From Phycisphaerales bacterium (GTDB lineage: Bacteria > Planctomycetota > Phycisphaerae > Phycisphaerales > UBA5793), in NCBI GenBank assembly GCA_020852515.1, contig JADZAS010000016.1:1-64000 (forward strand): 64,000 nt of DNA, given 5' to 3'. Made by a program: the position numbers and the translations under genes. The notes beneath the pieces were generated by a model. That model worked only from the letters and a program-made list of their open reading frames with translations. It did not search any database and was not told where the DNA came from. Below are positions 13,085 through 22,959 of the stretch, piece after piece. Numbering within the stretch: position 1 is the first letter of the stretch; every line of letters begins with the position of its first letter.

Positions 13085-16000
13085 TCACTGAATTCTCGAC
13101 AGCAGGTCATCCACCGCGGCGCGCAACTGTTCATCTTCGTTGGCCGATTCCGCCTCGGGCGTTTGCGGCACGAGGATGTCGGGCACGGCGCCGTGGTTTT
13201 CCATGTCGGTGCCATCCAGGAGGTACCAGCCGCGGAACGGGAGCCGGACCAGCGTCCCGTCGATGAGATTGGTCCCGCCGGTGCTGATCACGCCGCCGTA
13301 GGTTTCCTGGCCCACGAGTTTCCCGCGTCCGATGGTCTTGAATGCGTGCGAGATGATCTCCGCGTTGGAAAAGCTCTTCTCATTACAGAGCATGTTGATG
13401 GGCAGGTTGTAGCGCTGGATGAAGAGGCGATCCTGCGGATAGTGCCCGGTGGCGTCGGGGTCAGCGCCGCGCGGAATGGTGTAGGCGTGCTGCGGATAGG
13501 CGATTGAGGCGAGGAGCCGGTCGGTCGTCCATCCCCCACCGTTGTTGCGGACATCAATGATGAGCGCCTTGCGGTCATGCGCCGCGGCGTAGAGATCGCG
13601 CTCGAAGATGTCCAGCGACGGCTGGTTCATGCCCTCGATGTGGATGTAGCCGATCTGCCCGTCGGACCACTCTTCCACCTTTCTGGCGTTGCGGATGCGC
13701 CAGTCGTCGTAGCGCAGGCCTCGCTCGGCTCCGCCGCTGATCGGGGTCATGAGTACATCCAGCGGCATGGTCGTGCCGTCCTCGTTCGTGCGGACGATCG
13801 AGACGATGGTCTCCTGTCCTACGCGGCCGGTGAGGCGCGATTCAATCGTGTCCGTTGGCTCGAACGGTTGGAGATCGATGGCGGTGATGAGATCGCCGAC
13901 CTGCAGTCTCATCTGGCCGGTCGCTGCCGGGCCCAGGGCGACGATGTCAGTCACGCGGTAGGCATCGCCCTCGCGCACGGCGTCAATTCCCAGCCGTCCC
14001 ATGGGCTGATTGTTCGAAGGTGATTCGCCGCGCGCGTAGATGCCCAGGTGCGAGCCGTTGAGTTCGCCGATGAACCGAGCGGCGACGTCGTTGAACTCAT
14101 CAGCGGTTCGCGTCCGCCGCGCCAGCGCGTGGTACTTGTCCGTCAGTGCCGGCCAGTCGAGACCTTTCATCGTGGGGTGGTAGAACATCTCCCCGAGGAT
14201 CCGGGCCGCCTCCAGGAACTTCTGGCTGGCCTGTGCCTGGAGGTCGATCCGCATGGTGTGGTCAATGTCGATGGTTTCCGTCTTTCCGCCGGTGACAGGA
14301 ATGGTCGCCCCGCGACCGCCGGAAATGATGACGATCTTGTCGCCGGCGGTATTGAGATGTTGAACCGAAGCGAACCCGGTGATTCGCTTGAGATCGCTGC
14401 CATCCCATTTGACGGAGAACAGGCCCGACTCATCCGTGCGGCCCGAGAAGATGTAGTAATCGCCGGCCGGCGTCATTTCGAGGTTGCCTTCCGAGCCTGA
14501 CATGCTCGTGACGCGGCGCAGGCGGAGGTAGGCGTCCTCCAGATCGAGCGGGTCCGCTTCCGACGGTTTGACCTCCGGGGCGGGCTCGTCGAATCGCACT
14601 GGTTTGATCGGCTTGCGCTTTTTGGCCTCCTTGGCTGCGTCGTCGTAGTACTTCTGCAGTTCCTTGGGCGTGTACGACTCGATGTCCTTGTCGAGGTAGA
14701 CCATCCAGACATCTGTCTCCTCGTTGAGGCGCTCGGAGACGAATGACAGAATGCGGCCGTCGGCGGACCAGCGCGGGCTGGAGTCATTGTCGGGATGGCG
14801 CGTGACGTTCGCGGCCGGCGCCGAGCCATCGGCGGGAGCGATCCAGATGTCGGCGTTGAAGTCCATGTCCTCCTGCTGGTAGGCGACGTAGCGGCTGTCG
14901 TAACTCCACCGCGCCTCGATGCCCGTATCCCACCCGGCGGCAATCAGGCGATCTTCGCCCGTGAAAAGGTCGCGCAGCATGAGATCCCCGCGACCACGCC
15001 GAAAGAGCAGGCTTCGGCCGTCGGGCGATGGAATCGGCTGGCGATCGTTGTGCTCAATCGTCGCCACGACGGGCGTGATCGTGAACTTGACGGCATCGTG
15101 CCAGCGCTTCGGATCGAATTGCGGCGGGACCTTCTCCTCTTCCTTCTCGTCCTTGACCTTCTCGTCCTGCTCCGGTTCATCGTCCGCGGGCTCATCGGCT
15201 CCGGCCGGCGCCGGCTCGGCCGGGGGTGCATCCGGCGGCTCAGTCTCGGGCGTCGTCTCGGCCGCAGGTTCATCTTCCTGAGCGGGCTCTTCGGCCTCAG
15301 GCTCTTCGGCGGCAGGCTCCTCGGCCGGCTCGGCCTCGGGCGGCTGGGTCGCCTTCTTGAACGCCTCGATGATTTCGCCGCGCGTCAGATCGACGGTGGC
15401 CATGTAGATCGAGTCGGTTCCATCTTCGTCGCTCGTGAAGTACAGGCGCACGCCGTCTGGCGACCAGGCGATGTTCTTCTCGCGCGCGTGTGAGTCGGTA
15501 ATGCGCTGCGTGGGGCTCTTGTCCTCGACGTTGCGTAGATAGACCTCGCCGTACGCGACGAACGCCATGACCTGCCCGTCCGGGCTCAGCGCTGCTTCGG
15601 ACACCTCGCGGTTGATCGGGTGAATCTCGAAGTTGTCGCGCTCATCCTCGTTGGCGGTGATCGTCAGCGGCGCGGGGCGCGCGCTTTGCCGCGCGAGATC
15701 GAGTATGTACAGCGTGTCCCAAACCGACAGTACGGCTGTACTCGCATCCACCGACACGTCGAACTCCTGCACGTCATTTTCATCGAAGTGCGTGAGTTGC
15801 GCCACCGCCTGCTCGCCGCGCTGAAGATCCATTCGGTAGAGGTTGACGACGCCGTCTTTGCGATCGGACATGTAGATGATGGTCGAGTCATCGACCCATT
15901 GCGCGCGGCCGTCGTTGCCTTCCCACTGCGTCAGTTGCTTGAACGACTCATCGCCTCGGTCGTAGAGCCACACATCCCGGTCATCGGGCCCCATGTAGTG

Positions 16001-16624
16001 GCGCCGCGACCATGAAGAGCCACCGCGCGTGAAAAGGACTTTCGAGCCGTCCGGGCTCACGGCGGGGTACTCGCCGAACGCGCCGTGGAGTCGAACGAGA
16101 TCGCCGCCGTCTGGAGAGATCATGTACGGCCGGGCGGCCCGGTAGACATCCCCTTCGAGGCGCGCCCAGCCGGTGAGCACTTCGCGGCCATCGGGGCCGA
16201 GGCCGTAGCCCGACAGCGCGACGGTCTGGTCGATCTGGGTGACCTGCCGGACGTCCGTGCCGTCGCGGTTCATGGTGAAAATGTTGTTGCCGCCGGCCCG
16301 CGTGGAGTTGAACGCAATGCGCCGGCCATCGCGGCTCCACGCCGAAAGCCACTCGTCGGCGGGATGCGCCGTAAGGCGGGTGGCATGGCCGCCCTCGCTC
16401 GCCACGCTCCAGAGGTCACCCCGCCAGGAGAAGACGATGGTGGACCCGTCGGGGCTGATGGAGGGAAACCGAGGCAGATCGACATTTCCTTGGGCCGGCT
16501 GCCCGGCGGGCTGGACCGTCGAGGCCGACGCATCGCCGCCGGCACCGGTCGGCGCGGCCGCCGCGCAGCCGGTGAGGCTCAGGCCGGAGGTGAGTGCGAG
16601 GGCGACGAAGATCATACGCGACAT
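13085..16624 (-). CDS. Tricorn-type protease, lipoprotein precursor
   Basis: 1179 residues from the ATG at 16624 with AAGGAG in front. A lipoprotein signal (LALTSGLSLTGC) places it in the envelope. Residues about 45-330 form a TolB/PD40 beta-propeller (repeats such as SPDGSTIVFSWRGDLW). A second propeller is split by an acidic Pro/Glu insert. Next come the helical bundle, a PDZ domain (GRLGIDAVREGDAYRV) and an S41 core: LIIDVRNNGGGWTTDR, and EKSFSNAEI with probable nucleophile S1086, then GGVISTGGTNL. Tricorn degrades short peptides in the archaeal cytosol; bacterial homologues are often exported. The N-terminal frame extends into the divergent gene, but the lipobox and ribosome-binding site fix the start. 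The family call is strong; the substrate range is unknown. Confidence 0.92.
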   Translation of the reverse strand: MSRMIFVALALTSGLSLTGCAAAAPTGAGGDASASTVQPAGQPAQGNVDLPRFPSISPDGSTIVFSWRGDLWSVASEGGHATRLTAHPADEWLSAWSRDGRRIAFNSTRAGGNNIFTMNRDGTDVRQVTQIDQTVALSGYGLGPDGREVLTGWARLEGDVYRAARPYMISPDGGDLVRLHGAFGEYPAVSPDGSKVLFTRGGSSWSRRHYMGPDDRDVWLYDRGDESFKQLTQWEGNDGRAQWVDDSTIIYMSDRKDGVVNLYRMDLQRGEQAVAQLTHFDENDVQEFDVSVDASTAVLSVWDTLYILDLARQSARPAPLTITANEDERDNFEIHPINREVSEAALSPDGQVMAFVAYGEVYLRNVEDKSPTQRITDSHAREKNIAWSPDGVRLYFTSDEDGTDSIYMATVDLTRGEIIEAFKKATQPPEAEPAEEPAAEEPEAEEPAQEDEPAAETTPETEPPDAPPAEPAPAGADEPADDEPEQDEKVKDEKEEEKVPPQFDPKRWHDAVKFTITPVVATIEHNDRQPIPSPDGRSLLFRRGRGDLMLRDLFTGEDRLIAAGWDTGIEARWSYDSRYVAYQQEDMDFNADIWIAPADGSAPAANVTRHPDNDSSPRWSADGRILSFVSERLNEETDVWMVYLDKDIESYTPKELQKYYDDAAKEAKKRKPIKPVRFDEPAPEVKPSEADPLDLEDAYLRLRRVTSMSGSEGNLEMTPAGDYYIFSGRTDESGLFSVKWDGSDLKRITGFASVQHLNTAGDKIVIISGGRGATIPVTGGKTETIDIDHTMRIDLQAQASQKFLEAARILGEMFYHPTMKGLDWPALTDKYHALARRTRTADEFNDVAARFIGELNGSHLGIYARGESPSNNQPMGRLGIDAVREGDAYRVTDIVALGPAATGQMRLQVGDLITAIDLQPFEPTDTIESRLTGRVGQETIVSIVRTNEDGTTMPLDVLMTPISGGAERGLRYDDWRIRNARKVEEWSDGQIGYIHIEGMNQPSLDIFERDLYAAAHDRKALIIDVRNNGGGWTTDRLLASIAYPQHAYTIPRGADPDATGHYPQDRLFIQRYNLPINMLCNEKSFSNAEIISHAFKTIGRGKLVGQETYGGVISTGGTNLIDGTLVRLPFRGWYLLDGTDMENHGAVPDILVPQTPEAESANEDEQLRAAVDDLLSRIQ
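15129..15345 (-). repeat. Low-complexity Glu/Pro/Ala-rich insert within the tricorn protease gene
   Basis: About 72 codons of imperfect repetition (EEPAAEEPEAEEPAQEDEP, then APPAEPAPAGADEP, then EKVKDEKEEEKVPPQ). It sits between two propeller segments and should be an exposed, unstructured, negatively charged linker. Most tricorn proteins do not carry so long an insert at this point. Confidence 0.7.
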
Positions 16625-16795
16625 CCGTTTCTCCTTGGATCGGCGGCGTGGCAAGATGCGGGGCTGAACTCCCAATGGTTCGAGCAGCCGGCCGGACTCG
16701 TGGCCAGCCGGACTGCCGCTTATACTACCGCCGCTGGGCGAGGCTGCCGTCAGAGTGAGAAATGAGTCTCGCCGTTCACCGGTGCAAGGATCGCC

Positions 16796-18598
16796 GTGTC
16801 TCACGCGCCTGCCGATCTCAATCCGTTCCGCCTCTCGCTGGAGCAGCGCGGTCCGCTGGTGCGCGGCGTTCGCCCCGTACTCGAAGCCGTGCTGCGCTTC
16901 CCCGCGATGAATCGCATTTATCGTGAGATTCACTCCACAACCGACGACCGGCACTTCAGTGACCGCACGCTCGATGCGCTCGGAGTCGAACTGCAATTCA
17001 CGCTGGGCGACCTGAGCCGCATCCCCGCGACCGGCCCGGTGGTGCTCATCGCCAATCACCCCATCGGCGGCATCGACGGGCTGGCCATGCTGGCCATCAT
17101 GCGCCGCGTTCGAGCCGACTCGCGCATGATCGGCAATTACATGATGTCGATCATCCCCGATCTGCGCGAGATCTACCTGTTCGTCGATCCGTTCGGCGGC
17201 GAGGCAGCCGTGCGGCGCAACCTCGCCACCATGCGCCAGGCGATGCAGTGGCTGCGCGACGGGCACATGCTCGCGTCATTTCCATCCGGCGAAGTCGCGT
17301 CGTTCCAGCTCCGACAGCGCCGCATCGTCGAGCCGCAGTGGAACGATTCGATCGCCCGCATGATCCTCAAGACCGGAGCGCCGGTCGTGCCGATCCACTT
17401 CGAGGGCCGCAACAGTACGCTGTTTCACGCCGCAGGCGTCGTGCATCCGCGGCTGCGCACCCTCATGCTGCCCACCGAGATGCTCCGCCGCCGGGGACGG
17501 GCCCTGCAGGTGCGCATCGGCAAACTCATCCCCTTCGAGCAGATCAAGCGGCACGGCAGTCCCGAGTCCATCACCGAATATCTGCGCCTGCGCGTCAGCC
17601 TGCTCGGCCAGCAGGAGGGCAAGGCGGCCGCACGGACGGACGCGGCCCGGCCGGGTGCGGTGAGTCACGCGCCGATCGTTGAGCCGGCGCCGCCTGAACG
17701 ACTCGCAGAGGACGTGGCAGCGCTGAGCGGCGAGCATGAACTCGTCTTGCAGGACCAATTGCGAGTGTACTGCGCGCCGGCGGAGATGATCCCCCACTGC
17801 CTTCAGGAAATCGGGCGGCTGCGCGAGATCGCCTTCCGCGCCGTCGGCGAAGGAACAGGACGCCCGACTGACCTTGATCGATTTGACCGGCACTACCTGC
17901 ACCTCTTTGTCTGGGATCAGGCGCGCAGCCGAATTCTCGGGGCGTACCGCGTCGGCCTGACGGACCAGATCGTCCCGGTGCACGGCATCGAAGGGCTGTA
18001 CACCCACACGCTGTTCCGCTTCGGCCGGCGATTGCTCGAACAGATCGATCCGTGCGTCGAACTCGGCCGCTCCTTCATCCATCCCGAGGCGCAGCGGGCG
18101 ACGGCGCCGCTCATGCTGCTCTGGAAAGGCATCGGCCAGTTTTTGATTCGCAATCCGCGCTACACGGGACTGATCGGGCCGGTAAGCATCAGCGCCGAAT
18201 ACTCGACAATGTCGCGGCTGCTGCTCATGGCGTTTCTTCGTATGCACAAATACCTGCCGCAGCTGGGCGACCTTATCAAGCCGCGCAACCCGCCCCGCCA
18301 GATGCCGCCGCGCGAGTGGGAAACGCAGCGAATGAGCACCGTCGTAAGCGATCTCGACGAAGTGGACTCGCTCGTGCGCGAACTGGAGGCGGACGGCAAG
18401 CCCATGCCCGTGCTGCTGCGGCAGTACCTCGGACTCAACGCGGCGCTGCTGGGGTTCAACGTCGATTCACAGTTCGGGAACGTCATCGACGGGCTCATGT
18501 TCGTCGATGTGCTCAAGATCGACCGGCGCATCATGCGGCGATTCCTGGGCGTCGAAGGCCTGGAGCGCTACTTGGGGGCACAGGCCGCCCTGGCGTGA
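16796..18598 (+). CDS. olsF: OlsF-like bifunctional acyltransferase (PlsC-type N-domain + OlsB/hemolysin-type C-domain)
   Basis: 600 residues from a GTG with CAAGGA upstream. The N-terminal half is a lysophospholipid acyltransferase: ANHPIGGIDG (H-x5-D form of the acyltransferase motif), FVDPFGG, SFPSGEVASF and APVVPIHFEGRN. The C-terminal half (about residues 310-520) is a GNAT-like acyl-ACP N-acyltransferase of the OlsB/hemolysin type: FVWDQARSRILGAYRVG, VELGRSFIHPEAQ and GPVSISAEY. Known OlsF enzymes use the C-domain for N-acylation of ornithine and the N-domain for the second, ester-linked acyl chain, giving phosphate-free ornithine lipids. The same chemistry on another amino acid is possible. 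It is convergent with the hydrolase-DedA-ATP-grasp fusion gene, 10 bases apart. The symbol is by analogy. Confidence 0.8.
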   Translation: MSHAPADLNPFRLSLEQRGPLVRGVRPVLEAVLRFPAMNRIYREIHSTTDDRHFSDRTLDALGVELQFTLGDLSRIPATGPVVLIANHPIGGIDGLAMLAIMRRVRADSRMIGNYMMSIIPDLREIYLFVDPFGGEAAVRRNLATMRQAMQWLRDGHMLASFPSGEVASFQLRQRRIVEPQWNDSIARMILKTGAPVVPIHFEGRNSTLFHAAGVVHPRLRTLMLPTEMLRRRGRALQVRIGKLIPFEQIKRHGSPESITEYLRLRVSLLGQQEGKAAARTDAARPGAVSHAPIVEPAPPERLAEDVAALSGEHELVLQDQLRVYCAPAEMIPHCLQEIGRLREIAFRAVGEGTGRPTDLDRFDRHYLHLFVWDQARSRILGAYRVGLTDQIVPVHGIEGLYTHTLFRFGRRLLEQIDPCVELGRSFIHPEAQRATAPLMLLWKGIGQFLIRNPRYTGLIGPVSISAEYSTMSRLLLMAFLRMHKYLPQLGDLIKPRNPPRQMPPREWETQRMSTVVSDLDEVDSLVRELEADGKPMPVLLRQYLGLNAALLGFNVDSQFGNVIDGLMFVDVLKIDRRIMRRFLGVEGLERYLGAQAALA

Positions 18599-18607
18599 CG
18601 ACCGCAT

Positions 18608-21232
18608 TCAATCCGCCAGCGCATCGACGCGCCGGTCCACGCGGTGCGACCGGATGGCGCGCACGAGCGTTCGCAGAGGCGTGACGGGCGCGCCGGCCTG
18701 CGCGTTGCGGCTGCCGATCTCGTAGGCGAGCGCCCATTGCTTCGCCAACGTGCGCCAGGCGAACAGCAGCGAGTGCTGCGGGTCGTAGATGTTCGACGAC
18801 TCGGAGAGCACGCCGTTGAGCTCCACGATCCGGAAACCGTGGCCGGCGCGGAAGGAGTCGACGTCGCTGTAGCGCACGTCGAATCGGCCGAAGTAGTACC
18901 CATCGAAGGATCTCGCGACTTCATCGATCGCGGATTCGAGTTCAGGCGACCAGAGATGTCTGCCTTCGCGGAACATGGTGCCTTGGCAGTGATTGCCCGA
19001 GACGGCCAGCGTCATCTGTTCCCCCGGGGCCAGCACGCGATCAATCTGCTCGTCGTAGCGGTGCAGAAACGTCCACGCCTGCATGCGGTAGCGGCGGTGC
19101 GCCCAGATGAGGTCCTCGAAGGTGGATTTTCCGTCGCCGGTAAGTACGGGAAACTGCTTGTCTGTGATCGAGAAGATGCGGCCGCGCGCTTCGCCGGGCA
19201 ATCGGTAGTAGAAAATGCCTGCTTCGAGGGGTCCAGGGTCGTAGGTCTGCGCGAGCACGTCGCCGGCGAACTTCGCGAAGTAGCCCTGCGCCTGCTCCCA
19301 GTTGCGGACCAATTTCAGGCCCTGACCGCGCTCGCCCACATCGGGCTTCAGCACAAGCGGGAACGACCAGCCGCGCTCTTCGAGGATCCGTTTCAGTGCC
19401 AGGGTGCGGTCGGGCTCGCTGGCCGCAACGAGCGCGCTGGGCACGATGCGCTCGGCGGGCAGTGCGGAGAGGATGGCGTGCTTTGATTCGCCGACCACGC
19501 CGCCGTGGGGGATCGCCGGATTAGCCGCGGTAAACGCCATGAGGCTGCGGCGGCGCAGCGCCTGCCAGGCGACGACCGGCACGAGCGGCAGGTAAAAGAC
19601 GCTCACCGGCCAGAACTCCCAGCGCCACAGTCGCGACACCAGCACAATGAGCCGCTGCCTGCCGCGCCGGCTGGTCAACATCGCAAAGGTCCGCAGAACG
19701 ACCAGCAGAAGCAGCACGACGACGACGATGGCGATCCAGCCGTCGCCAAGAATGCGCTGGACGGTGGAGGTCGTGCTCTTCCCGAAGAAGACGACGATCG
19801 AAATGATGACGGGCGTCCAGATCGCCACGGCGCCGAACGTCCAGAGTGCAAAGCGGCGGCGCTTCGTGCCCAGCACGCCCGCGGCGACATAGAGCGGTAC
19901 GCGCGTGCCCGGCACAAAGCGGCTGGCGAGCACGGCCGACCAGCCGTGCTTGTCGAACCAGCGGCTGAGCACATCGATGTGGTGCGCCGGCAGCCGCCGC
20001 GCGATGGGCCGCCAGCGCAGCGCGGGCCGGCCGACGATCGCACCGATGAGGTAGAGCCCGAGATCGCCGATGAAGATTCCCAGGAACACGGCCAGCACAC
20101 CGACGAGTGGATCGAGCTGCCCATCGCGGATGAGCAAGCCGACCCCCACCGACGTCGGATCTTCGAGGATAAACGTGCCGACGATGATGGCGCCCATTGT
20201 GGCCCACGGCCCCATGTCGCGGCTGAGATTCAGTTCGACGGGAAGAATCGCCTTCTCTCTCTCGCCGCCTGAGTAATCGACGGTGCGGCGAGCCGGCACT
20301 ATGGCCGGATCGGAGGCGCGCTGGACGAACGGGATGATTTCATCGGCGAGTTGCTGCGACTTGGCCTCGCTGAACACCATGAAGTGCGAATCATCGAACA
20401 TCACCAGTTCGCTCTGCGGCACGATCTCGTGATGTTGCTCGGCGACCCACGCCGGGACAAGGGGGTCGCGACGCCCGTGCAGGATGAGCAGCGGCTTGCG
20501 CCAGCGCTCGAGCACGCCGCGCAAGGGGCGAAAGTCGGTGTCGAGGAAGTTGCGCATGAATGCGTGGCGGGCAGCCCGCGGTCCAAGCAGCCCGAAGTGC
20601 GGCACGAATTCGGGCGCGATGACGAGCAGGCCATAGCCGAGGTAGTTCTTGAGCCGCTCAAAGCCCGGATCACCCGACCCTTCGCCCTCCGCGATGCCAA
20701 CGCCGCCGTAGAAGATGAGACTGCTCACGCGCTGTGGCTCGAGTTCGGCCATGCGGAGCGCCACTCCGCTGCCCATCGAGTAGCCGAGAACGTGTGCCCT
20801 ATCTACATCGAGCGAATCGAGCAGCTCCAGCACGTAGCGCGCATGCGCTTGGTGGCTGTAGTCCGGAACCAGACGCGTGGAGGCGCCAAAGCCGGGCAGA
20901 TCGACCGTAATCACGCGGAAGTGCTCAGCGAGCATCGGCGCCAGCAGGTGAAAGTTGTCGCCGGAGCCCGGACTGCCGTGAATGAGCACGACGACTTCGC
21001 CCTGCCCCTGCTGGCGGTAGGCCAGCGAAATCGCCTTTTCTTCCAGCGGGCGACCATCGCGCACCGCAGGAACCACCACCTTGGATTGATCAGGCGCGAG
21101 CGATTCGCCGCGGGGCCAGAAAAGCTGAACAACCAGCGAGAGCGCGAGCAGCAGCAGCCACCACTGCCACCATCTCCAGGCGGGCAACCAGCGCCGAGTG
21201 CGCGGTGCGGTCTGCCCCTCGGACGCAGTCAT
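18608..21232 (-). CDS. Three-domain fusion: alpha/beta hydrolase + DedA membrane domain + ATP-grasp
   Basis: 874 residues. An N-terminal membrane anchor (WWLLLLALSLVVQLFW) leads into an alpha/beta hydrolase (residues ~65-305): VVLIHGSPGSGDNFH, nucleophile in LGYSMGSGVA, acid in LHGRRDPLVP and His in DDSHFMVF. Residues ~335-530 form a DedA/VTT domain: GVLAVFLGIFIGDLGLYLIG and SRFVPGTRVPLYVAAG, with several membrane helices. Residues ~570-870 are ATP-grasp-like: FPLVLKPDVGERGQGLKLV, LAQTYDPGPLEAGIFYYR and FDVRYSDVDS...VELNGVLSESSNIYDP. DedA proteins are linked to lipid scrambling or flipping, and ATP-grasp enzymes join carboxylates to amines. Fused, they may make and move a modified lipid. The start codon overlaps the stop of the NRDE-like gene by one base (TGATG), so it belongs to that operon. 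Confidence 0.88.
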   Translation of the reverse strand: MTASEGQTAPRTRRWLPAWRWWQWWLLLLALSLVVQLFWPRGESLAPDQSKVVVPAVRDGRPLEEKAISLAYRQQGQGEVVVLIHGSPGSGDNFHLLAPMLAEHFRVITVDLPGFGASTRLVPDYSHQAHARYVLELLDSLDVDRAHVLGYSMGSGVALRMAELEPQRVSSLIFYGGVGIAEGEGSGDPGFERLKNYLGYGLLVIAPEFVPHFGLLGPRAARHAFMRNFLDTDFRPLRGVLERWRKPLLILHGRRDPLVPAWVAEQHHEIVPQSELVMFDDSHFMVFSEAKSQQLADEIIPFVQRASDPAIVPARRTVDYSGGEREKAILPVELNLSRDMGPWATMGAIIVGTFILEDPTSVGVGLLIRDGQLDPLVGVLAVFLGIFIGDLGLYLIGAIVGRPALRWRPIARRLPAHHIDVLSRWFDKHGWSAVLASRFVPGTRVPLYVAAGVLGTKRRRFALWTFGAVAIWTPVIISIVVFFGKSTTSTVQRILGDGWIAIVVVVLLLLVVLRTFAMLTSRRGRQRLIVLVSRLWRWEFWPVSVFYLPLVPVVAWQALRRRSLMAFTAANPAIPHGGVVGESKHAILSALPAERIVPSALVAASEPDRTLALKRILEERGWSFPLVLKPDVGERGQGLKLVRNWEQAQGYFAKFAGDVLAQTYDPGPLEAGIFYYRLPGEARGRIFSITDKQFPVLTGDGKSTFEDLIWAHRRYRMQAWTFLHRYDEQIDRVLAPGEQMTLAVSGNHCQGTMFREGRHLWSPELESAIDEVARSFDGYYFGRFDVRYSDVDSFRAGHGFRIVELNGVLSESSNIYDPQHSLLFAWRTLAKQWALAYEIGSRNAQAGAPVTPLRTLVRAIRSHRVDRRVDALAD

Positions 21233-21990
21233 CAGCGAGGCGCTCCACTGCGGGGCAGTTCAACCACGACCGGGTCGCCGCACGCATCCGGCGAATCTCC
21301 CCAGTAAGACATTCGCATTTGCGCAGCGATCGCATCCACAACCGTGAGGCTGACGGTCCTGGCGTCGGCGCGGCTCATGCACACGCTCAGATGCGGCCGA
21401 TCGGGCCAGCGGTGGCGGTGAAACGAAGCCTGCCGCTGCGGCCACTCCGATGGCTGATTGCCAAACCACCCATCAAACAACCGGCGCCGAGGCGCCTCCA
21501 CGAGCGCATCTCCAAGCCCGGAGGAGGTGAACATTGCCGGCTGTAACTCAAGCTGCTGCGATGCGACATCAACCTCCGAAGCGCCCGCAGCCGCGCGCAG
21601 CAGGTTCTGGCCATCTGTTACCACAAGCGTGAAGGGCAGGTACTGCCGCGCATCGAGCGCTGCGACGACCTCCGCGGCGCCGGAGACGGACGTCTGCGCA
21701 AGAATCTCCGGGATGATCTCTCCGCGGCTGCGCGGCGAGGGGTGGGTGGACGGCGGGGAGCCGTCGTTGCGGTTCAGCAGCGTGGCGACCAGCCCCGACT
21801 GATTCACCCCCACCCAGGTGCCGCCGCCGACAGGATCGCTGGGCCAGATCGAATCGTGCTTGCCGGCCCGGTGCACGCGCGGTGGCAGGGCCGGCGGTCG
21901 TTGGCGGGATTCGTCTCGGCTGGTCGCCAGTCGCAGCCCGATCCGCTCGCCGTCCGGGCCGACAAGCGGGATGATCGTCACCGTGCACAT
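21232..21990 (-). CDS. NRDE-family protein (TANGO2-like, putative Ntn-type hydrolase fold)
   Basis: 252 residues starting MCTVTII, the family hallmark: the Cys at position 2 may become an N-terminal nucleophile after Met removal. SRDES at residues ~24-28 is the NRDE-type motif in slightly altered form, and GGGTWVGVNQSGLVATLLNR is the second conserved block. In eukaryotes TANGO2 is tied to Golgi, lipid and heme metabolism; bacterial members are uncharacterised. The start lies 13 bases inside the end of the DinB-like gene and the stop shares a base with the start of the three-domain fusion, so the three genes form one operon. The family is well supported, the function unknown. Confidence 0.82.
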   Translation of the reverse strand: MCTVTIIPLVGPDGERIGLRLATSRDESRQRPPALPPRVHRAGKHDSIWPSDPVGGGTWVGVNQSGLVATLLNRNDGSPPSTHPSPRSRGEIIPEILAQTSVSGAAEVVAALDARQYLPFTLVVTDGQNLLRAAAGASEVDVASQQLELQPAMFTSSGLGDALVEAPRRRLFDGWFGNQPSEWPQRQASFHRHRWPDRPHLSVCMSRADARTVSLTVVDAIAAQMRMSYWGDSPDACGDPVVVELPRSGAPR

Positions 21991-22553
21991 GACTGGCGTT
22001 TGAGATGGGCGATGGTGCCAGGCGCGTAGCCGAAGCGCTCAGGCATCTCGACTTGCATGATGCGCAGCATCGCGGCGACCATGGCGTTGTGGTGGATCGT
22101 GTGGCTGAGCACGAAGGCGCTTTCGCGGCCCAGCGTCGAGACCAGTTCGACCGGCGGCGAATCGCTGCGGAGCATGAGCCACGTCCGCACCGGACGCTCC
22201 GGCGCCTCGCTCAGACGCCCCGCCAGATGCGCGTCGAGCGATGCAATCCGATCGAGTGCGGCGGTGCGGCTGCTTTCGACCGCCGTGCCGCGCTCCCGGG
22301 CCTCGTAATCGATCTCGCCGCTCTCGAATCCCCTGAGCAGGGCCCCGATGTGATCGAGGCTGTGGCGGATGTGCCCTCCGACGCTGCTCTGGAAAGCTCC
22401 CACGGGCGACCGGACGTACTGCTCGTCAGTCATCGATGTGAGCAACACCCGAACCTGCTCGAGGATCTCGCGAATGGGCGCAATCCCGCAGACCGAGGCG
22501 CCCGCCGCGGCGGGACTTGCAGTGTGCGGAGCACAGGTCTGGTTTTCGGTCAT
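21978..22553 (-). CDS. DinB/YfiT-like four-helix protein, putative metal-dependent
   Basis: 191 residues from the ATG at 22553; the longer frame adds an unlikely leader. The pattern fits the DinB superfamily: IREILEQVRVLLTSMTDEQY in helix 1, SSVGGHIRHSLDHIGALL in helix 2 and ESAFVLSHTIHHNAMVAAML in helix 3. The three His positions that bind a divalent metal are supplied by GGHIRHSLDH and LSHTIHHN. Such proteins include thiol-dependent transferases and many of unknown role. It is first in the operon with the NRDE-like and three-domain fusion genes. A TATACT hexamer on the minus strand at 22607-22602, about 50 bases upstream, is a possible -10 element. Confidence 0.75.
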   Translation of the reverse strand: MTENQTCAPHTASPAAAGASVCGIAPIREILEQVRVLLTSMTDEQYVRSPVGAFQSSVGGHIRHSLDHIGALLRGFESGEIDYEARERGTAVESSRTAALDRIASLDAHLAGRLSEAPERPVRTWLMLRSDSPPVELVSTLGRESAFVLSHTIHHNAMVAAMLRIMQVEMPERFGYAPGTIAHLKRQSCAR

Positions 22554-22821
22554 GTAGACACCAATCGGTTCCGGGACGCCTAGGACTCGAAATCGGGAAG
22601 CAGTATAAGCACCGGGAGGCAAACAACCCACTGTGCCCCGGCCCCGGGCTTTTCTATTGGGGATCGGATACCAGCGCTTGCAGAGGATGAAGCGCGGGGT
22701 CCCGACCCGCGGGCTTGAGGTCGGCCCCGGCGCCGCGCCGGAGATGCACCGATTCTCCGCGATGCCGTGGGAACTGGCGTCGTGTGAACCGGTGGCCGCT
22801 CAGGTCTGAGCGTGAGGTGAA

Positions 22822-22895
22822 TGCAGATGGGAGGATTCGAACCCCCAACCCCCTGATCCGTAGTCAGGAGCTCTATCCAATTGAGCTACATCTGC
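22822..22895 (-). tRNA. tRNA-Arg (anticodon ACG)
   Basis: A 74-nt cloverleaf. The acceptor stem pairs GCAGATG at the 5' end (22895) with CATCTGC near 22823, followed by discriminator A. The D arm is GCTC...GAGC, the anticodon stem CCTGA/TCAGG with loop CTACGGA gives ACG, and the T arm carries TTCGAAT. The CCA end is not encoded. ACG is read as ICG after deamination and decodes CGU/CGC/CGA. No integration scar is visible on either side. Confidence 0.95.
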
Positions 22896-22959
22896 AGCAT
22901 CAGCCGCTGTTCGGTCGGCTGCTTACCCAAGAATACACCGGCCTTGCGAGAGGTTCAAG

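Follow-up and report, generated by a model that had tools for sequence, protein, structure and literature searches.

A membrane protein predicted to join an α/β hydrolase, a DedA domain and an ATP-grasp ligase, encoded beside aminolipid synthase genes

DedA proteins of COG0586 are built on a core of two re-entrant and three membrane-spanning helices, and the characterized members move lipid from the outer to the inner leaflet (PMC10127716). In E. coli YghB, residues D51, R130 and R136 have been assigned to proton and lipid-phosphate binding (PMC10127716), and evidence from UptA indicates an N-out topology (PMC11474028). Fusions of COG0586 domains with rhodanese and PAP2 domains are on record (PMC10127716). 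Among fusions of the COG0398 group, those with pyridine nucleotide-disulfide oxidoreductases are the commonest type.

Two α/β hydrolases of lipid metabolism are also relevant here. PlaF is an inner-membrane phospholipase A1 of Pseudomonas aeruginosa with a periplasmic domain, and a role in a Lands cycle has been proposed for it (PMC9132575). OlsI is an α/β-hydrolase-fold O-acyltransferase that participates in ornithine-lipid synthesis in Singulisphaera, where together with OlsH it forms a GH3-dependent pathway described in 2025 (PMC12493201). The literature on aminolipid pathways that we examined, including PMC12493201, names neither a DedA protein nor an ATP-grasp enzyme, and Burroughs et al. 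(2015), writing on an ATP-grasp clade, mention nothing about lipids or hydrolases. Each of the modules described below is known singly, whereas we found no published description of a DedA–ATP-grasp ligase fusion, or of all three modules in one chain, in the open-access literature searched.

A three-domain polypeptide and its neighbours

The protein described here is encoded in a window of 64,000 nucleotides, which is the whole stretch of DNA that was analysed. Its reading frame begins with ATG and is intact. An earlier, sequence-only reading had proposed that this frame specifies one polypeptide carrying a hydrolase, a DedA membrane domain and an ATP-grasp ligase, and that proposal is upheld by the frame, by Pfam matches to the first two parts, by profile and fold matches to the third, and by an AlphaFold model of the full protein. 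The domain boundaries given in Table 1 were taken from the same model.

Table 1. Features of the fusion gene and adjoining genes, with positions in the window.
Feature	Position	Strand	Basis
α/β hydrolase–DedA–ATP-grasp fusion protein, 874 aa	18608..21232	–	ORF, Pfam, relatives, AlphaFold pLDDT 90.4
N-terminal membrane helix, aa 12–38	21119..21199	–	Model and charge bias; N-in
α/β-hydrolase domain, aa 49–306, S152/D256/H283	20315..21088	–	Pfam, profile, model, alignment; predicted periplasmic
Codon of nucleophile Ser152 (GYSMG)	20777..20779	–	Alignment
DedA/VTT domain, aa 342–519	19676..20209	–	Pfam, YghB alignment, model
Membrane-proximal helical linker, aa 522–583, EFWPxWxFYxPLxP...NPGIPxGGxVGESK	19484..19669	–	Alignment, model
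ATP-grasp ligase domain, aa 584–845	18698..19483	–	Profile, fold match, alignment
OlsF-like bifunctional aminolipid synthase (Acyltransf_2 + Acetyltransf_5)	16796..18598	+	Pfam; convergent with fusion
TANGO2/NRDE-like protein (PF05742; MCT start, SRDE motif)	21232..21990	–	ORF, Pfam
DinB_2-superfamily protein (PF12867)	21978..22631	–	Pfam; overlaps TANGO2 start

The hydrolase domain matches Abhydrolase_1 (PF00561; E 8e-32, amino acids 80–228) and has both the fold and the Ser-Asp-His triad of the α/β hydrolase superfamily. The catalytic residues that had been pointed out from the sequence are conserved in relatives, such that, among the 52 aligned rows with a hydrolase, the serine is present in 48 and the aspartate and histidine in all 52. 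A family profile covering the hydrolase and the preceding membrane helix (positions 22–316) gave PlaF (6I8W) as its top PDB match. Because generic esterases outrank PlaF in single-sequence and fold searches, this resemblance is not specific. PlaF, too, has a membrane helix followed by a hydrolase, and for the fusion a periplasmic location of the hydrolase is predicted. In three Balneolota and one Acidobacteriota (loci L117, L121, L127 and L116), the nucleophilic serine is replaced by glycine (GYGLGG, GFGLGG or GSGMGG) and the aspartate and histidine are retained; these hydrolase domains may be non-catalytic. The Balneolota members with this replacement sit in an operon composed of OlsB, OlsA and the fusion.

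The central domain scores 60.4 bits against VTT/DedA (PF09335; E 3e-16, amino acids 362–480), above the gathering score of 33.9. Its key residues are E357 and D358 at the tip of the first re-entrant hairpin, R438 and R444, and W472. When the domain is aligned with E. coli YghB, D358, R438 and R444 correspond to D51, R130 and R136, respectively. YghB residue E39 has no aligned partner in the fusion, although the adjacent E357 may substitute for it. Equivalents of D358, R438 and R444 are kept in more than 90% of members (E357/D358 in 51 rows, and each arginine in 52 of 55).

Charge bias and the DedA fold together predict that the N terminus lies inside, that the hydrolase is outside, and that three DedA spans then return the chain so that the ATP-grasp domain is inside. 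Averaged over the 52 full-length rows, net charge falls from +4.5 ahead of the first membrane helix to –1.5 behind it; the loop around positions 404–418 averages +2.3, positions 484–499 average –0.6, and the stretch that follows the last DedA helix averages +5.2. This topology is consistent with the N-out orientation indicated for UptA (PMC11474028) and with the described DedA core (PMC10127716).

Pfam gives no match to the C-terminal third of the protein at E≤10. A profile built from 21 relatives of this region picks out cyanophycin synthetase, through its ATP-grasp domain (E 5e-7). The ligase part was also modelled separately (AlphaFold, pLDDT 90.5), since Foldseek searches with the full model were dominated by the hydrolase, and a search of the PDB with the separate model again ranks cyanophycin synthetase at the top (E 2.6e-11), with the glutathione synthetase GshF and D-Ala-D-Ala ligase next. 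Residues K629, E670, K692, D785, E804 and N806 are invariant in all 56 aligned relatives, and the fold, the catalytic lysine K629 and the E-x-N metal site formed by E804 and N806 are those of the ATP-grasp superfamily. In its nearest ATP-grasp relatives, a carboxylate is activated as an acyl phosphate and then joined to an amine. The motif of the linker that precedes the ligase (Table 1) is found in every aligned relative.

The fusion is convergent with an OlsF-like gene, as noted previously, though the gap between them is 9 bp rather than the 10 bases first counted. Judged by its sequence, this neighbour is OlsF-like, having both acyltransferase domains; its score against NF052615 is 400 bits, below the cut-off of 620. 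It is the only Acetyltransf_5 gene in the genome at E≤1e-8. On the other side, the NRDE-like and DinB-like genes of the proposed operon belong to PF05742 and PF12867, respectively; TANGO2 and the fusion share one base (TGATG), and the DinB-like gene overlaps the TANGO2 start. A scan for promoters and terminators returned nothing above chance. Divergent from the OlsF-like gene is a Tricorn-protease-like gene (13085–16957, minus strand) with a PD40 propeller, a PDZ domain and an S41 peptidase domain, which is kept at that place in all five genus genomes examined. A tRNA-Arg (ACG; 22821–22896, minus strand) lies between the DinB-like gene and 6-phosphogluconolactonase, and the plus-strand ORF that crosses this tRNA is probably spurious.

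Recurrence of the fusion and loss of its modules

Is this protein an artefact of assembly or annotation, as the sequence-only reading had allowed if the fusion were unique to this assembly and split by stops in relatives? Full-length fusions with no internal stops are present in 4 of 4 other genomes of the same genus (70–89% identity) and in 8 other genera of the order (44–54% identity). Because the same domain order is found uninterrupted in many genomes, the artefact explanation is rejected, and the comparison of sequences confirms that the three-domain fusion is real. Within a phylum sample of 294 genomes, searched with a single protein as query, 32 carry the fusion when all of its forms are counted. 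It also occurs in Acidobacteriota, Verrucomicrobiota, Bacteroidota, Balneolota, Rhodothermota, Calditrichota, Gemmatimonadota and Desulfobacterota, and the named isolates that carry it include Fodinibius salsisoli, Aliifodinibius salipaludis, Puniceicoccaceae bacterium K14 and Planctomycetes bacterium Pla163.

Some members lack one of the modules. In a tree of ATP-grasp domains built by a quick method, many of whose branches are weak, the short DedA–ATP-grasp forms turn up at various places between full-length planctomycete sequences, and this distribution suggests that the hydrolase has been lost repeatedly. No separate hydrolase gene was found in the vicinity of the short forms. Given these forms, and the members in which the nucleophile is glycine, hydrolysis cannot be essential. 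A second match, this one with a hydrolase, is present in a genome that has a short DedA–ATP-grasp form as its main copy (G014:C31:495-1634).

The DedA domain, in turn, has degenerated or is absent in members of a single Phycisphaerales clade. At loci L050–L053, L119, L123, L124, L128 and L129 it is absent or lacks its signature, and the hydrolase and ATP-grasp domains are kept. DinB and TANGO2 are absent from the loci of the DedA-degenerate clade, where a radical SAM protein is encoded directly upstream of one fusion (L119:4514-5767, plus strand) and an ORF of the same cluster is present in L124. Among the forms found, the ATP-grasp domain is the only module that is never lost, in a search seeded partly by ATP-grasp conserved motifs and therefore less apt to find forms without this domain. 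On this pattern, the ligase is most likely the core of the protein, with the hydrolase and DedA domains as accessories that are each dispensable in some lineages.

Linkage to aminolipid synthase genes

The ORFs neighbouring 80 fusion loci were clustered, with Pfam and NCBIfam as a check on the resulting families. DinB-like genes are found at 49 of these loci, TANGO2 at 40, Acetyltransf_5 genes of the OlsB/OlsF type at 36, and PlsC/OlsA-like genes at 24. Beyond Planctomycetota, these genes usually run OlsB–OlsA–(DinB)–(TANGO2)–fusion on one strand, an operon seen in Acidobacteriota, Bacteroidota, Balneolota, Gemmatimonadota and Calditrichota. An Acetyltransf_5 (OlsB/OlsF) gene is present in 29 of 39 fusion-bearing genomes, with exactly one copy in 28. 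In 22 of the 29 genomes (five of the 22 belonging to one genus), no more than 5 kb separates this gene from the fusion, a proximity with a chance of about 0.3% for each. A chance neighbourhood is rejected by such recurrent proximity.

The fusion-bearing genomes without Acetyltransf_5 come mostly from one Phycisphaerales clade. If the fusion serves aminolipids, then these genomes should hold another synthase, for which the GH3-dependent pathway is a candidate. A GH3 gene is present in 23 of 24 fusion genomes that lack Acetyltransf_5, compared to 3 of 19 that have it, and at 11 loci an α/β hydrolase and a GH3 protein are encoded directly upstream of the fusion operon. This pair in the sister clade has the anatomy of OlsH/OlsI, with a PF03321 + GH3_M + GH3_C protein adjoining an Abhydrolase, a likeness judged solely by which domains are present and how they are arranged. 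Across the phylum sample, one of the two synthase systems is present in 31 of 32 fusion genomes and in 94 of the 262 others (Fisher p 6e-12), and p-values of this kind overstate independence because the genomes compared share ancestry.

The association that had been suggested with OlsF stands as one conserved across phyla, as do those with DinB and TANGO2, although it is not with OlsF alone. The view of OlsF as the specific partner is revised, since OlsB/OlsA or the GH3 pair takes its place elsewhere. Synthase linkage is observed at 43 of 74 loci with an intact DedA domain and at 0 of 6 with a degenerate one, a contrast that is suggestive only, the six loci being one clade; the genomes of the DedA-degenerate loci do contain GH3, which was not found adjoining the fusion. 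Among the 31 DedA-intact loci without visible linkage, some are cut by contig ends and some have their synthase elsewhere in the genome. At 15 loci, a membrane protein of the Rieske plus ferric-reductase type is encoded, together with a partner protein of no assigned family, beside the aminolipid genes (L095:1172-2994, L099, L104, L106, L110, L112 and L126 are among them). In several phyla this possible lipid-oxidizing redox module is upstream of the OlsB-like gene.

Proposed function and comparison with known systems

Because the fusion is conserved in many phyla beside genes for phosphorus-free aminolipids, it probably tailors these lipids. Moreover, the exchange of OlsBA or OlsF for an unrelated GH3 pair ties the fusion to aminolipids independently of any one synthase family. 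We therefore give a probability of roughly 55% to the reading of the protein as a membrane-bound tailoring enzyme for acyloxyacyl (ornithine-lipid-type) aminolipids, acting across the inner membrane. A lipid role, as envisaged from the sequence, is strongly implied; the substrate, direction of transport and activity set out below are inferred.

We hypothesize that the cytosolic ATP-grasp domain, anchored at the membrane by the amphipathic EFWP linker, would activate the free carboxylate of the N-acyl amino acid that OlsBA, OlsF or OlsHI supplies, and would couple it with an amine or an amino acid to yield a lipodipeptide or an amide head group. The DedA domain would carry this amide lipid (or the lyso derivative) from one leaflet to the other while R438 and R444 hold the anionic group, and the periplasmic hydrolase would take off (or transfer) the ester-linked acyl chain. 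The net result could be a cycle of deacylation, flipping and reacylation, or a head-group cycle, and operation in the reverse direction, as salvage, is possible. Amidation of the head group on the inside is favoured because the N-acyl amino acid keeps a free carboxylate and because the EFWP linker would hold the ligase at the membrane. That the fusion is a single-chain, trans-bilayer lipid processor with which many environmental phyla make novel amide-extended aminolipids, lipodipeptides or the like, is a more tentative proposal, with the odds somewhat against it.

The same parts could also be arranged as a salvage pathway of the Lands type, in which the hydrolase degrades a lipid of the outer leaflet, DedA imports the product as UptA imports undecaprenyl phosphate, the ligase rebuilds or marks it, and the synthase re-acylates it. 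Such an order would match the outer-to-inner movement of lipid by characterized COG0586 proteins (PMC10127716), the proposed role of PlaF (PMC9132575), the retention of acidic and basic DedA residues, and the presence of O-acyltransferases (OlsA, OlsF or OlsI-like) adjoining the fusion. However, the hydrolase or its serine is lost in several lineages that have synthase linkage, which is a poor fit to an obligatory first step, and we consider salvage to be unlikely.

We regard as clearly less probable still the possibility that the protein acts on undecaprenyl phosphate or on an intermediate of the peptidoglycan type, with DedA recycling undecaprenyl phosphate and the ligase adding an amino acid to an envelope precursor; on this reading, the aminolipid neighbours would reflect a shared envelope or phosphate stress response. 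Both C55-P-binding arginines are conserved and D-Ala-D-Ala ligases are among the fold matches, but the match of the UptA model NF052604 to the DedA part, at 52.5 bits, is far below its curated cut-off of 250. Shared stress regulation would hardly explain the exchange of synthase and GH3 pair at one slot, and DedA is degenerate only in the clade whose aminolipid genes are unlinked. Finally, although OlsI is an O-acyltransferase with an α/β-hydrolase fold (PMC12493201), it is very improbable that the hydrolase is an enzyme of this type that completes the aminolipid and makes the fusion a synthase, because O-acylation is already covered by neighbours at linked loci (a separate OlsI-like hydrolase adjoins GH3 at all 11 GH3-linked loci, and OlsB/OlsF loci have OlsA or the OlsF acyltransferase domain) and the nucleophilic serine is glycine in some members.

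If the fusion does tailor aminolipids, then it would represent a DedA protein whose likely cargo is an aminolipid, as well as a candidate enzyme for extending aminolipid head groups. Extended aminolipids are known, such as the ornithine–taurine lipid cerilipin and serine–glycine lipids. The question of what DedA proteins other than UptA carry also becomes directly testable.

As noted above, the modules resemble described proteins in different ways. The fusion shares with PlaF a single N-terminal membrane helix followed by an α/β hydrolase; PlaF, however, is a stand-alone enzyme with glycerophospholipid substrates, whereas the fusion carries DedA and ligase domains. With the COG0586 proteins UptA, YghB and YqjA it has in common PF09335, helices that fit two re-entrant and three spanning segments, the aspartate at the first tip, the arginines at the second, and Trp472, and it differs in its shorter first hairpin and in the joining of DedA to two enzymes. 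Cyanophycin synthetase is the best match by profile and fold, and its ATP-binding lysine and metal-binding E-x-N are present in the fusion. This match is to the ATP-grasp part alone, at 18–20% identity; no Mur-ligase domain was found by Pfam or profile, so the protein is not classed as a cyanophycin synthetase, and in place of the Mur-ligase-like half the EFWP...GESK helical segment precedes the ligase. The conserved genomic partner of this arrangement is OlsBA, OlsF or a pair with the anatomy of OlsH/OlsI.
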